A stretch of 7,137 nt of DNA from Chloroflexota bacterium (GTDB taxonomy: Bacteria; Chloroflexota; Dehalococcoidia; Lucifugimonadales; UBA826), in the NCBI GenBank assembly GCA_002718095.1, contig PBDP01000004.1, positions 322,103 through 329,239 of the forward strand, read 5' to 3'. Shown here one piece after another: positions 1 to 7,066 of the stretch. Below the pieces are notes generated by a model. The model saw only the letters and a program-made list of their open reading frames with translations. It did not search any database and was not told where the DNA came from. The number at the start of each line of letters is the position of its first letter. The stretch's first letter is position 1. The translations under genes and the position numbers were made by a program.

Positions 1-390
1 TTTTTTGGTTCTCCTTTAAATTTAGGTCTTTCTACTCCAGACTGGTTAGGATTCCGCATACTTGAAATTCCAGATCAAATAACGGAAGGGTCAACAATTT
101 TGTATAAGATAAAATTGGGGTTTGTTTATATGAAATGGTGTACTGTTATAGCGAAATGGCAACCAACTGACGTATTTGTAGATTTTCAATCAAAAGGACC
201 TTATTCTTTGTGGTGGCATGAGCACAGTATAAAATCTTTATCTCCTAATTCTTCAATTATGGAAGATCTAGTAACTTATAAAGTCCCTTTTGGTATATTT
301 GGGAGAATAGCCCATTATTTTTTTATCAGAAAAATATTGAACAGAATATTTAATTATCGACGATTTATTATGAGATTGAGATTTGGATAA
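1..390 (+). CDS. SRPBCC (START/Bet v1-like) ligand-binding fold protein, 5' truncated by window edge
   Basis: The reading frame is open from the first base to a TAA at 388-390, giving the last 129 residues, so the true start lies upstream of the window. The protein matches my memory of the COG4276-type SRPBCC family: a 'P-NL-STPDWLGFRIL' segment, then a Trp-rich strand pair (KWCTVIAKWQP), then 'FVDFQSKGPYSLWWHEH', then a 'VPFGIFGRIAH' stretch, ending in a basic helix with RIFNYRR. These proteins form a helix-grip pocket for a hydrophobic ligand; the ligand is unknown. No signal peptide can be judged without the N-terminus. An internal ATG at 130 would remove the N-terminal strand, so it is not the start. 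The B12 regulator begins 6 bp after the stop, which implies co-transcription. From memory, such genes often sit near photolyase or carotenoid genes, which would fit a light-regulated operon. Confidence 0.8.
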   Translation, partial: FFGSPLNLGLSTPDWLGFRILEIPDQITEGSTILYKIKLGFVYMKWCTVIAKWQPTDVFVDFQSKGPYSLWWHEHSIKSLSPNSSIMEDLVTYKVPFGIFGRIAHYFFIRKILNRIFNYRRFIMRLRFG

Positions 391-396
391 AACATT

Positions 397-1296
397 ATGA
401 CTAAAAAGAATAAAAAAGATCTATACAAACCTTTAGTTAGTAGAATGGTATCTCATTTATTGGACAACGATTATGCTGGATGTGAATCTGTGATTAATGA
501 TTCACTACGATTACAGCTTCAACCTGGAGAAATTTATTCCCATATACTTTCTGGTGCTATGACGCAAATAGGGAAATTATGGCATTCAGGTAAAATTTCT
601 ATTGCTCATGAGCATCTGGCTACACAAATGACGGCTTCCATAGTTGATATGGTAGCTGATAAATTCCCTAAGCTTTCTTCAAATGGAAAAATAGCTATAA
701 TTGCTACCACTTCAGGAGAAACACACTGGATGGGAGCTAAAGTGTTTTCAAAACTTTTAGAATTAGAAGGTTGGGAGGTTCATTATTTAGGATATGATAC
801 CCCGCAAACAGATCTAGCTTCATATGCAGATTCTCAGTCAGCTGACATAGTTGTAATATCTATTGTTAGAGACTCGTATATACTTGGAACAATAGAAGCT
901 ATTGATAAGATACAAGAACTAGATCCTGCTCCTGTTATATTAGTCGGTGGGCCTGCGACAGAAGATCATTTTGAGTTGTTAAAAGAATCAAATGTATTAT
1001 TAGCTCCTGATTTTATTTCTGGTATGGATTTGGTTAAAGATGCCTTTGGGCTTTCTGCTGAATTTTCCTCATTAGAAGAAGTTCTAGTCGGGATTGGAAC
1101 AAATATTCAGAATACTAGGAAGTCCAGATCTATGAGTCAAATGGAATTAGCTGAAATTGCTGGAGTTGATAGAGCTTATATAAGCTTGGTTGAAAACGGA
1201 AAACAAAATATTACCATGTCAGCTTTGCATAAATTTTCAGAAGCCTTAGGAGTTTCTTTGATATCTTTAATGCCTTCCTTATCTAGCACTGAATAA
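397..1296 (+). CDS. CarH-like adenosylcobalamin photoreceptor regulator with C-terminal XRE helix-turn-helix
   Basis: This 299-residue protein has three parts. Residues about 10-88 form the helical cap domain with the W-x9-EH signature (W62, E72, H73) of B12 photoreceptors, and W62 is followed by H63, the position of the light-induced second cobalt ligand (His132) in Thermus CarH. Residues about 97-215 form the Rossmann-like B12 domain: E108-x-H110-xx-G113, then 41 residues, S155-x-V157, then 26 residues, G184-G185. This is the family spacing, with H110 as the expected lower axial ligand. Residues about 232-292 form an XRE/HTH_3 domain, with MELAEIAG then DRAYISLVENGK as the two HTH helices. 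There is no N-terminal MerR domain, unlike CarH/LitR. The predicted role is light- and AdoCbl-dependent DNA binding in the cytoplasm; the target genes are unknown, the adjacent SRPBCC gene being the best guess. Its stop lies 3 bp from the convergent plsY stop. Only a weak GGAT lies upstream of the ATG. Confidence 0.9.
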   Translation: MTKKNKKDLYKPLVSRMVSHLLDNDYAGCESVINDSLRLQLQPGEIYSHILSGAMTQIGKLWHSGKISIAHEHLATQMTASIVDMVADKFPKLSSNGKIAIIATTSGETHWMGAKVFSKLLELEGWEVHYLGYDTPQTDLASYADSQSADIVVISIVRDSYILGTIEAIDKIQELDPAPVILVGGPATEDHFELLKESNVLLAPDFISGMDLVKDAFGLSAEFSSLEEVLVGIGTNIQNTRKSRSMSQMELAEIAGVDRAYISLVENGKQNITMSALHKFSEALGVSLISLMPSLSSTE

Positions 1297-2300: not shown

Positions 2301-3314
2301 TTATTTATAAACCTGAATTCTGTGCCTATTACTTTCTGTTATATACAATGTCTCATCTTTATCTAGTTTTATAGATACAGGTCCCCAGAACAATTTTTCA
2401 ATATGAGCTGATTCTTCATGTGGATCCTGATTGAATTGAGAAATTTCAGGTTCTAGGTTGGATCTAGATCGAGGTTCTGCTTCTTCTTGGTTGGCTTCCA
2501 TAAACTCTTCCCCCCATTTAGATAAAGTAGCCTCTCCTCTAAGTGTTTCTATCCAGTTTCCATTTGAATCTAATATTTGAACACGTTCATTTCCCCAATC
2601 AGCAACATATAAATTATCTTTTTTGTCTACCGCGACACTTGAAGGATTTTTAAATTCTCCATCTGCAGTTCCTAAATTACCAAATCGATTTATCAATTCC
2701 CCTTTTTCAGAGAATTTTGCAATTTGATGGTTGCCCCAGTCAGCAACATAGATATGATTACTTGGTGAAACTGTTATCCCCCATGGGAGATTTAGATTTA
2801 TATTCTCATCGGTCTCATTTCCAAACAAAGATATAAAAGTCCCATCAGATGTAAATTTTTGTATCCTGTTGTTTTTATGATCTGAAACCAACAATTCATT
2901 ATTTTGATTGAAGCATATTCCAGAGGGGCCATCCAGCTCTCCAGGATTAGTACCTGTTGTACCCCAAAATTTTTTAGGATTACCATTTATGTCATACACA
3001 TTTATACGATTATTTTTTTCATCACTTATATAAATATCTCCAAAGCTATCTGTAGTGATGGATGATGGCCATCTAAATTGACCTAATTCATCTCCATATC
3101 CACCATATATGCCATAGAATTCTCCATTAGTGTCATATACGGTTACTCGTAAATTGCGAGGCACCGCTGAGTATGCTCGACTTACAGTATGCATTCTTCC
3201 GTCATTTGAGAAAGTAGTATCTACGGGAAACATAAATCCTCTACCTTCCATAGTACATAAGCCAATCGAATGACTATATTTCATTTTTTTAATTTGGGTT
3301 ATATCTGTAGTCAT
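2301..3314 (-). CDS. NHL-repeat beta-propeller protein
   Basis: From the ATG at 3314 the protein has 337 residues. Four clear NHL repeats lie at about 81-109, 127-154, 175-201 and 221-248, each with a P-x-G/S-I/V start, a (D/N)-x-(L/I)-(Y/L)-V-(A/S)-D core and a N-x-(R/Q)-(I/V) end (for example NLYVADWGNERVQI). A degenerate blade at about 26-70 and a final one at about 311-336 (DETLYITESNRHRIQVY) make six, enough to close a propeller. An acidic, low-complexity insert of about 55 residues (252-308) separates the last two blades. NHL propellers are usually binding scaffolds; the partner here is unknown. No signal peptide is seen. A longer TTG-initiated form from 3365 would overlap the DUF1800 gene by 41 nt. 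I prefer the ATG, 10 nt after the DUF1800 stop, although neither start has a good Shine-Dalgarno sequence. It is the last gene of the minus-strand run. Confidence 0.85.
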   Translation of the reverse strand: MTTDITQIKKMKYSHSIGLCTMEGRGFMFPVDTTFSNDGRMHTVSRAYSAVPRNLRVTVYDTNGEFYGIYGGYGDELGQFRWPSSITTDSFGDIYISDEKNNRINVYDINGNPKKFWGTTGTNPGELDGPSGICFNQNNELLVSDHKNNRIQKFTSDGTFISLFGNETDENINLNLPWGITVSPSNHIYVADWGNHQIAKFSEKGELINRFGNLGTADGEFKNPSSVAVDKKDNLYVADWGNERVQILDSNGNWIETLRGEATLSKWGEEFMEANQEEAEPRSRSNLEPEISQFNQDPHEESAHIEKLFWGPVSIKLDKDETLYITESNRHRIQVYK

Positions 3315-3324
3315 TTGTTTTATA

Positions 3325-4755
3325 TCAACATTTCTGGAATTCAGGTACTGATGCAATAACTCCAAACATATTGGAAATTTTCTCTTTTAATTCGTTTTTA
3401 TCGTTACTATTCAGTAAATCAATGCTAGTGGCAAAATTCTCTAAGGATTCTTTTGTGTGACTTGAAATATCTAAACCACCAATTTCATCCATTATGTTTG
3501 TTATTAATATATCTAGATTCATAGAGGATATATCACTATTCATAATAGTATTTGAAATTTTTGAAATTCCAGGTTTAGTTGCGTCACTCATTTGCTGTAC
3601 GCAGAAGTTTACTCTTTCTGTGATTGATCCCGTTTCAATCCATTCAAGCCCTTGATGCCATCCTTCAACAGATGGAGGGTTTAATAATTGTTGCCCCATG
3701 TAGGTTATCTGAGAGTTCCGACTAGATAATTCAAATTTTGGACCATCAAATTCTTCAGTAATTCTTAGTATTTGAACAACTAGTTCAGTTGGGCTTTTAA
3801 TTTTTTTATAGAATGTTTCCTCTGATTTAAAAAACTCAGAGTTAAATAATGTACGTAGCATTTCTTCAATATTGTGGTTGCTGTCAAAATAACATTTCTC
3901 TAAAATATTTATTGCTTCAATATCTTGAGGTTCAATATATGGCCATGAAGGGACGGGGGGTTCATCGGCAACAAAGAAATGATATAAATGTCTAGATATA
4001 AACCTAGCCGTTGAAGGCTGTTGGCATATGATTTTTATAATATCTTCACCATTAAAGTCACCTTTTTCTCCTAAAAAAGTCTTTTCTGATGAATCATGAT
4101 CTGACTCGTCGTATTCGTATCGCCAAGCTATTTTACCGTAGGGCCAGATAGAATTACGCACAGCTAATTGTTTTGTATAATCTACGTTCGCAACTGTCCA
4201 ACCGGTAAATGCACGGGAACATTCTTTAATGTCCTCTTCGGAATAATTTCCAACACCCATAGAGAATAGTTCTAATAATTCACGACCATAATTTTCATTA
4301 ATAGCACCTTTATGATTATCCATATTGTCAAGCCAAATTATCATTGCAGGATTTTTTGATAATTGTAAAAGTAAGTCATCTAATCTTCCTAATCCATATT
4401 TTCTGAACATTGAAATCTGGTCAGTCAGAGATTTTCCATTTGTGACTTTGGAATATCCAGTTGCAAATATGTTATGCCAGAATAAACCTATTTTTTCTTG
4501 TAGAGGGTTATTGGAAGAAACTAGTCTGTATAACCAATATGAACCTGCACCAGTAGAATCGTGTGAAACTGATTGGTCTGGGTGGTAACGTCGCAATAAA
4601 GAATCGTCAATTCCGTTAAATTCAATTTTAGGATTTAGTAATTCTTCGACAGTGGATTCATAACCAATATTAAGTCTTTTTTCTATCTTATCTTTTGTTT
4701 CAGAGAACCCGGCCCTTCTCATCAGATGCGACATAAGTTTAAAGTTATCTACCAT
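3325..4755 (-). CDS. DUF1800 domain protein
   Basis: This 476-residue protein belongs to the DUF1800 family (PF08811). It shows the N-terminal HLMRRAGFS signature (residues 10-18), LFWHNIFATG (91-100), the long family block NENYGRELLELFSMGVGNY to RAFTGW (153-186) and LLNPPSVEGW (357-366). The biochemical role of the family is not established; members are often encoded with a DUF1501 protein and are thought to be envelope-associated or secreted. No signal peptide or membrane helix is visible here, and the following gene is an NHL propeller, not DUF1501. The ATG is supported by GAGGTG 4 nt upstream. The fur-family gene ends 43 nt upstream, and that gap holds a TATAAT and a 19-bp imperfect palindrome, so it may have its own regulated promoter. 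The final about 90 residues after the VEGW motif are predicted helical and less conserved. Confidence 0.9.
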   Translation of the reverse strand: MVDNFKLMSHLMRRAGFSETKDKIEKRLNIGYESTVEELLNPKIEFNGIDDSLLRRYHPDQSVSHDSTGAGSYWLYRLVSSNNPLQEKIGLFWHNIFATGYSKVTNGKSLTDQISMFRKYGLGRLDDLLLQLSKNPAMIIWLDNMDNHKGAINENYGRELLELFSMGVGNYSEEDIKECSRAFTGWTVANVDYTKQLAVRNSIWPYGKIAWRYEYDESDHDSSEKTFLGEKGDFNGEDIIKIICQQPSTARFISRHLYHFFVADEPPVPSWPYIEPQDIEAINILEKCYFDSNHNIEEMLRTLFNSEFFKSEETFYKKIKSPTELVVQILRITEEFDGPKFELSSRNSQITYMGQQLLNPPSVEGWHQGLEWIETGSITERVNFCVQQMSDATKPGISKISNTIMNSDISSMNLDILITNIMDEIGGLDISSHTKESLENFATSIDLLNSNDKNELKEKISNMFGVIASVPEFQKC

Positions 4756-5691: not shown

Positions 5692-6039
5692 TGGTGGAGA
5701 CGGGGGAGGGTCGAACTCCCCGTCCAAAAGATACCCCGAACGAGATGTACTACAGGCTTAGCTAATCATTAAATTTGTTTGGAATAGCATCGATTAGCGG
5801 ACACTAAACCAGACTAGCCGATAGTTTTCAGCCAGTATTATCGGCGTAGTACTGACTACACCCCGTCTATCGGCGCCTATCCAGCCTCTTCGGGGATCGA
5901 GAGTGGTAGACGTGGCCTAATTAAGCGGCCAGTGCTAGCTGTTTATTGCCAGTTACTTTTTTCCCTTCTTTTTAACGAGGGAGAAGGACCTCGACCTGCA
6001 ATCTCGCGGTGACATCCTCTGTCGAATCCGCGCGTCCCC
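5692..6039 (-). ncRNA. ssrA: tmRNA (transfer-messenger RNA), one-piece
   Basis: On the minus strand the RNA begins GGGGACGCGCGGATTCGAC, the conserved 5' end of tmRNA, and ends with GGGAGTTCGACCCTCCC (T-arm) and GTCTCCACCA. The seven-pair acceptor stem GGGGACG/CGTCTCC closes with one G-U pair, and CCA is encoded. The 348-nt length is normal. A tag reading frame follows GTAACT. The RNA rescues ribosomes stalled on broken mRNAs by acting first as alanyl-tRNA and then as a template for a degradation tag, together with SmpB. It is much richer in G+C than the flanking genes, as expected for structured RNA. No separate terminator hairpin follows the CCA, so 3' processing from a longer transcript is likely. 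Confidence 0.97.
5921..5950 (-). other. tmRNA tag-peptide reading frame (GNKQLALAA)
   Basis: Read on the minus strand from GGC at 5950, the frame is nine sense codons plus TAA and encodes G-N-K-Q-L-A-L-A-A. The LALAA end is the standard protease-recognition signal, and an A occupies the -4 position before the resume codon (GTAACT-GGC), as in other tmRNAs. The resume codon is GGC (Gly) instead of the more common Ala. The tag is about as short as these tags get. Confidence 0.9.
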
Positions 6040-6919: not shown

Positions 6920-7066
6920 CTTTTCCGAATTAAATTAGGTAATAAAACTTTCTCTTTAGGAGTTTCTGATTGGGGACAATCTGGTAGTAGGGCAGATTTG
7001 TATAAAGAATATGGGATTAACACGGATTCTATTGTTAATGCATGTATATCTGTATTAGATATATAA
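6920..7066 (+). pseudogene. Remnant of a transketolase C-terminus (start-less, 48 codons)
   Basis: Between an in-frame TGA at 6917-6919 and a TAA at 7064-7066 there are 48 sense codons whose product contains LGVSDWGQSGSRADLYKEYG followed by INTDSIVNAC. This aligns well in pattern with the very C-terminus of transketolases (an SG-x4-L-x4-GI/L-x2-D-x-I core, as in the human enzyme). It has no ATG and no ribosome-binding site at its front, and the rest of the transketolase (TPP and pyrimidine domains) is absent because hyi occupies the upstream DNA. It therefore looks like the 3' tail left by deletion or rearrangement. It begins 4 nt after the hyi stop. A short expressed peptide is possible but unsupported. 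Confidence 0.6.

Follow-up and report, generated by a model that had tools for sequence, protein, structure and literature searches.

A B12-binding module joined to a C-terminal XRE domain in a SAR202 bacterium: a putative light-responsive regulator of membrane-lipid genes

The regulator gene, its domain layout and its relatives

The window is a stretch of 7,137 nucleotides of Chloroflexota DNA that opens with the 3' part (1..390, + strand) of a gene for a TIGR01777 oxidoreductase with a C-terminal SRPBCC-like domain. The whole gene lies at L034:13075-14493, and the SRPBCC-like domain was assigned by eye and from its similarity to SRPBCC genes in L046/L047. The stop codon of this gene is 6 bp ahead of the ATG start of a 299-aa open reading frame on the + strand at 397..1296, which encodes the B12-XRE regulator and is recognized from its ORF, its Pfam domains and full-length homologues in many Chloroflexota families. 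Further along the window are a DUF1800 gene and then an NHL beta-propeller gene, which overlap at their ends (2301-4755, - strand), and a tmRNA gene (5692-6039, - strand) with the predicted tag GNKQLALAA. A short open stretch at 6945-7065 (+ strand), GVSDWGQSGSRADLYKEYGINTDSIVNACISVLDI, resembles by eye the C-terminal tail of a transketolase-type protein, with the remainder absent, and is possibly a gene remnant.

The 16S gene of the source genome is an exact match to the SAR202-312R probe. It also matches the SAR202-104 probe exactly (probe sequence from PMC6306507), and by this gene the source organism is a SAR202 Chloroflexota bacterium. The genome size of 1.44 Mb and the 33% GC of the stretch fit streamlined euphotic SAR202 (PMC11994032). 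The genome encodes a photolyase, a cob(I)alamin adenosyltransferase and a rhodopsin; light inhibits and kills cultured SAR202 strains, and heliorhodopsin has been proposed as the light regulator there (PMC10444878). The only other protein of the genome with a B12-binding domain (L001, G000:C5:329843-333169) adjoins a ferredoxin-ASKHA protein that resembles, by eye, corrinoid reductive activators.

The regulator features three Pfam domains, all above their gathering cut-offs. A B12-binding_2 helical cap at residues 16-85 (442..651, + strand; PF02607, 8.6e-12), which is helical in the AlphaFold model, is followed by a B12-binding Rossmann domain at residues 100-197 (694..987, + strand; PF02310, 2.2e-15) and by a C-terminal XRE/HTH_3 DNA-binding domain at residues 238-288 (1108..1260, + strand; PF01381, 1.1e-11, 45 bits against a cut-off of 23). 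The HTH_3 domain is the sole HTH of the protein and the only domain besides the B12 module: the N-terminus begins straight with the helical cap, and Pfam finds neither an N-terminal MerR-type HTH nor a biliverdin-binding (globin-like) domain. Glu266, Gly268, Gln270 and Asn271 of the HTH_3 domain are invariant in 37 of 37 homologues. A sequence-only reading of this DNA had proposed a B12 module joined to a C-terminal XRE domain, and the ORF and the Pfam domains bear this out; the same layout recurs in 37 Chloroflexota loci. By these sequence criteria the architecture is confirmed as real, far beyond chance. The same reading described a permuted and swapped output domain. The DNA-binding domain is indeed exchanged and placed on the other side of the module, but the order within the sensor module is unchanged.

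The best NCBIfam family for the regulator is CarH (NF052513), with 87.3 bits, below the curated cut-off of 400, and the closest sequence with a solved structure is Thermus CarH (1.5e-15, phmmer). Assignment as a corrinoid methyltransfer protein (MtbC/MtaC) was rejected on a score of 59 bits vs 350 for MtbC and on neighbours that are not corrinoid methyltransferases.

A full-length homologue with the same architecture is encoded by 19 of 60 sampled genomes of the same family and order, and full-length relatives were also recovered from further families of the class and from additional classes of the phylum. The class has, besides, proteins of the MerR type that carry this B12 module (L079, L081, L085 and L086, with the MerR start read by eye). 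A scan of genome contigs with the single protein returned no true relative and one match to the HTH only, and a scan of viral contigs returned none; the relatives came to light by searching whole genomes. According to a published survey, HTH domains can be fused to light-responsive B12 domains on the N- or the C-terminal side, with XRE unnamed in its text (PMC11796333). No paper on a B12 module with an XRE domain was found in a literature search that covered subscription papers thinly, so that absence is unproven.

Signature residues and fold of the B12 module

The SignatureFinder workflow characterizes light-responsive B12 domains by four motifs, GxxW, EH, GxxH and GxxxP, with experimentally verified examples, and it uses the residue names W131, E141, H142 and H177 for CarH (PMC11796333). 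All four motifs are present in the regulator. The GxxW signature, GKLW at residues 59-62, together with His63 (571..585, + strand), aligns with W131/H132 of Thermus CarH in phmmer, and the EH signature at residues 72-73 (610..615, + strand), kept in 37 of 37 homologues, aligns with E141/H142. The GxxH signature, GETH at residues 107-110 (715..726, + strand), places His110 opposite CarH H177, and His110 is the predicted lower cobalt ligand. The GxxxP signature is GYDTP at residues 132-136 (790..804, + strand). Gly59, Trp62, Glu72, His73, His110, Pro136, Gly184 and Gly185 are invariant across the 37 aligned homologues, in which Gly107 is kept in 33, Gly132 in 35 and His63 in 28. His63 is missing in the other 9, and the close SAR202 group retains it throughout. 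In CarH, H132 takes the upper ligand position once photolysis has occurred, and dissociation of the tetramer depends on it (PMC10442372). The residues named in the sequence-only reading (Trp62, His63, Glu72-His73, E108xH110xxG113, S155xV157 and Gly184-Gly185) are all correct in the translation.

The AlphaFold model of the regulator, built from a 19-row alignment, has a mean pLDDT of 90 and a pTM of 0.70. The best solved fold matches of its B12 module are light-responsive B12 proteins: the photocobilin 8j2w (Z 27.4, rmsd 1.9 over 207 residues), CtMerR 8jbs (Z 25.3) and CarH 5c8e (Z 21.3). Methionine synthase is found among these matches with a Z of 22.6, so the fold alone is no proof of a light sensor; it is the signature residues, not the fold, that separate light sensors from enzymes here. 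A structure overlay on Thermus CarH had been suggested for the geometry of His63 and His110. The model does superpose on the CarH B12 module, and the placement of the two histidines at the cobalt is based on the alignment.

The AppA SCHIC domain is also a fold match (Z 20), and B12-independent relatives such as CarA are known (PMC9304148), which is the basis for considering that the B12 module has lost cobalamin binding and now acts as a dimerisation or protein-interaction platform like that of CarA or AppA. This is very improbable, as none of the 37 homologues departs at the predicted cobalt ligand His110 or at the residues that contact the adenosyl group, and the source genome contains an adenosyltransferase gene. 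The claim of a light-type B12 module is instead supported by the sequence signature, the fold and a conserved gene context, and judging from its sequence the regulator most likely uses vitamin B12 for light sensing.

The divergent, putatively lipid-modifying operon and its candidate operator

The genomic context was compared in a close group of 12 loci (L034-L045, with L034 the source locus) and in 26 more distant loci. The TIGR01777-SRPBCC gene is directly upstream of the regulator in all 12 close-group loci, and 9 of the 12 share a divergent operon. This operon encodes a small membrane protein, ORF358, two CMAS (CFA-type) methyltransferases, an amine-oxidase-type FAD protein and a DUF1365 protein, often also with a 233-aa protein (truncated in L036 by the end of the contig). 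The exceptions are L038, in which the membrane protein is retained and ORF358 is reduced to a remnant of 70 aa, L035, which has none of the operon, and L039, where the contig ends. In L035 and L038 the TIGR01777-SRPBCC and regulator operon persists together with the palindrome described below, although nothing, or no more than a remnant, is left of the divergent lipid operon.

ORF358 (L034:11283-12359, - strand, on contig C4 of the source genome G000) is the best conserved member of the operon, with 51-62% identity to the source copy. Searches found no Pfam or NCBIfam family for it and no Pfam or PDB sequence match above noise, and its model (pLDDT 71) weakly resembles diiron acyl-ACP desaturases (E 0.017). 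A pyrimidine-dimer DNA glycosylase (PF03013) is encoded within the divergent operon at L042:6567-6983 (- strand), and L043 has an ORF of similar size in the same place.

Similar gene sets have been characterized in other bacteria. In the Pseudomonas LitR system, the genes for UfaM, PhrB, an SDR and an FAD oxidoreductase make up the conserved cluster that is regulated by light (PMC9758184), and the furan fatty acid pathway consists of UfaM, UfaD (NAD/FAD-binding) and UfaO (DUF1365) (PMC7380195). By analogy of gene type with UfaM/UfaD/UfaO, the divergent operon would be a light-induced pathway of acyl-chain desaturation combined with methylation or furan formation, and the regulator appears to control these adjoining membrane-lipid genes.

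In the distant loci, a photolyase gene is located within about 9 kb in six cases (L047, L049, L102, L103, L105 and L108), and 9 of the 26 have photolyase, TIGR01777 or SRPBCC genes nearby (these six with L046, L052 and L097). About 17 of the 26 have no recognised light gene within the flanks examined, and other signals or targets may therefore apply there. Two distant members adjoin RND efflux genes, and one of those (L051) is also beside cobU. The cobU neighbour and the patchy distribution of B12 synthesis in SAR202 (PMC11994032) would suit a regulator that senses AdoCbl supply or the redox state of cobalamin, whose holo-protein binds the operator when AdoCbl is plentiful and for which photolysis is incidental. 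Such a sensor is unlikely: the target operon is of the lipid-modifying kind known from regulons for light and singlet oxygen rather than one for B12 or for metabolism that depends on AdoCbl, photolyase and pyrimidine-dimer glycosylase recur nearby, and the light-type W/EH signature is invariant.

The divergent regions of the close group have a sequence in common, TTGTGYTATARTACAA, which is self-complementary at 10-14 of 16 positions and includes a -10 hexamer. When it was scored as a matrix with the clade left out, the score was reached in 0 of 1000 shuffles in eight loci and in 7 of 1000 in L042 and L043, in a test that was not fully blind because the seed sites had been chosen by eye beforehand. 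At the source locus the score was reached in 63 of 1000 shuffles, which is not significant alone. A genome scan with one mismatch allowed determined that each of seven relatives has exactly one TTGTGYTATARTACAA site, in every case at the shared promoter, and the reversed-pattern control gave 0 sites in the same scan. A related pattern occurs once each in G004 and G017 and twice in G008; the second consensus site in G008 (C17:11636) precedes an ABC transporter operon. The divergent promoters of G005 and G014 feature TTGTGCTATAATACAA and ATGTGCTATAATACAA, respectively. The TTGTGYTATARTACAA consensus was not found in the scan of the source genome. Some bases of the intergenic region there are ambiguous, and the region includes a related palindrome, GTGTCATGATACAC, 1.13 kb ahead of the window start (C4:320968-320981). 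GTGTCATGATACAC is the only exact match to its pattern in the source genome and is located at overlapping -10-like hexamers of both strands. Because the site overlaps the -10 box, conservation of the palindrome may in part be that of promoter sequence. In the distant loci L049 (9845-10414) and L052 (8900-9060), other repeats of a TGTAGA-TTATA type, seen by eye, precede the gene and are perhaps lineage-specific operators.

From the position and uniqueness of the site we infer that the regulator may bind the palindrome of the shared promoter. XRE proteins act as activators or as repressors. Since they can do either, a light response of the opposite sign or another mode has to be weighed, in which the protein would bind DNA after photolysis or act as an activator. 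It is quite improbable: the -10-like element overlapped by the conserved palindrome belongs to the regulator's own promoter, an arrangement consistent with repression, and CarH and LitR are dark repressors (PMC9304148).

Relation to known systems and proposed mechanism

The regulator shares with CarH/LitR (Thermus CarH 5c8d/5c8e) the helical cap and Rossmann B12 module, the equivalents of W131/H132/E141/H142/H177 and, for its own part presumably, local control of light-protection genes. CarH/LitR proteins have an N-terminal MerR domain, whereas the regulator has a C-terminal XRE domain. The operators of CarH consist of tandem 11-bp direct repeats, a design that is itself plastic (PMC9304148), and the candidate site here is a single imperfect palindrome over the -10 element, so the predicted operator would be of another design. 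An operator unlike that of CarH had been anticipated in the sequence-only reading, and the conserved palindromic candidate site agrees with this. By its domains and signature the protein would be a B12 photoreceptor regulator, but it is not a member of CarH.

The photocobilins (SasPcob 8j2w/8j2x and AbDPcob 8j2y) have the closest B12-module fold (Z 26-27) and the same light signature, but feature a biliverdin-binding domain instead of a DNA-binding domain like that of the regulator. CtMerR (8jbs/8jbt) shares the fold (Z 25) and the signature motifs, but is of the MerR family and has an Arg at the H132 position, in contrast to the XRE domain and His63 of the regulator. The ufa/phr light-inducible cluster of Pseudomonas PplR/PmlR (class II LitR) and the Rhodobacter UfaM-UfaD-UfaO system share the CFA-type methyltransferase, the FAD/NAD-binding oxidoreductase and the DUF1365 protein, and the Pseudomonas cluster also shares photolyase, which lies near some distant B12-XRE members. 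Compared to these systems, the SAR202 operon adds the desaturase-like ORF358, of an unclassified family, and the small membrane protein, and its regulator is of the XRE type.

The regulator is quite probably an XRE-type repressor that depends on AdoCbl, is released by light and acts on its own operon as well as on the divergent membrane-protection operon; we infer AdoCbl binding, light release, the sign of repression, the protein-operator pairing and the function of the operon. In the dark, AdoCbl would be held between the helical cap (Trp62, Glu72 and His73) and the Rossmann domain, with His110 as the lower ligand, and the AdoCbl-bound form would favour an oligomer that sets the C-terminal XRE domains on the palindrome. 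The palindrome would cover the -10 elements of the two divergent promoters, and its occupation would keep both operons off. Blue-green light would cleave the Co-C bond, after which His63 could occupy the upper ligand position like H132 of CarH, the assembly would loosen, DNA would be released and both operons would be expressed. The products would be the TIGR01777-SRPBCC protein and the regulator itself on one side, and on the other the acyl-chain-modifying operon with its desaturase-like protein, two CFA-type methyltransferases, FAD oxidoreductase and DUF1365/UfaO-like protein. The modification of membrane acyl chains would probably serve photo-oxidative protection.

On balance we lean towards a broader reading, in which these proteins would form a widespread, apparently undescribed Chloroflexota class of B12 photoreceptor regulators, with a C-terminal XRE domain, a palindromic operator that overlaps the -10 element and one local divergent light switch, which in SAR202 would turn on acyl-chain remodelling with an unrecognised desaturase family as a defence against green and blue light. 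The architecture also suggests that an XRE output acting on a palindrome can be coupled to the AdoCbl light module. Such a palindromic operator would be a simpler DNA target than the direct repeats of CarH and is potentially useful for gene control by green light. For SAR202, which is widespread in the ocean, the finding offers a concrete candidate light-regulated operon together with a candidate operator.
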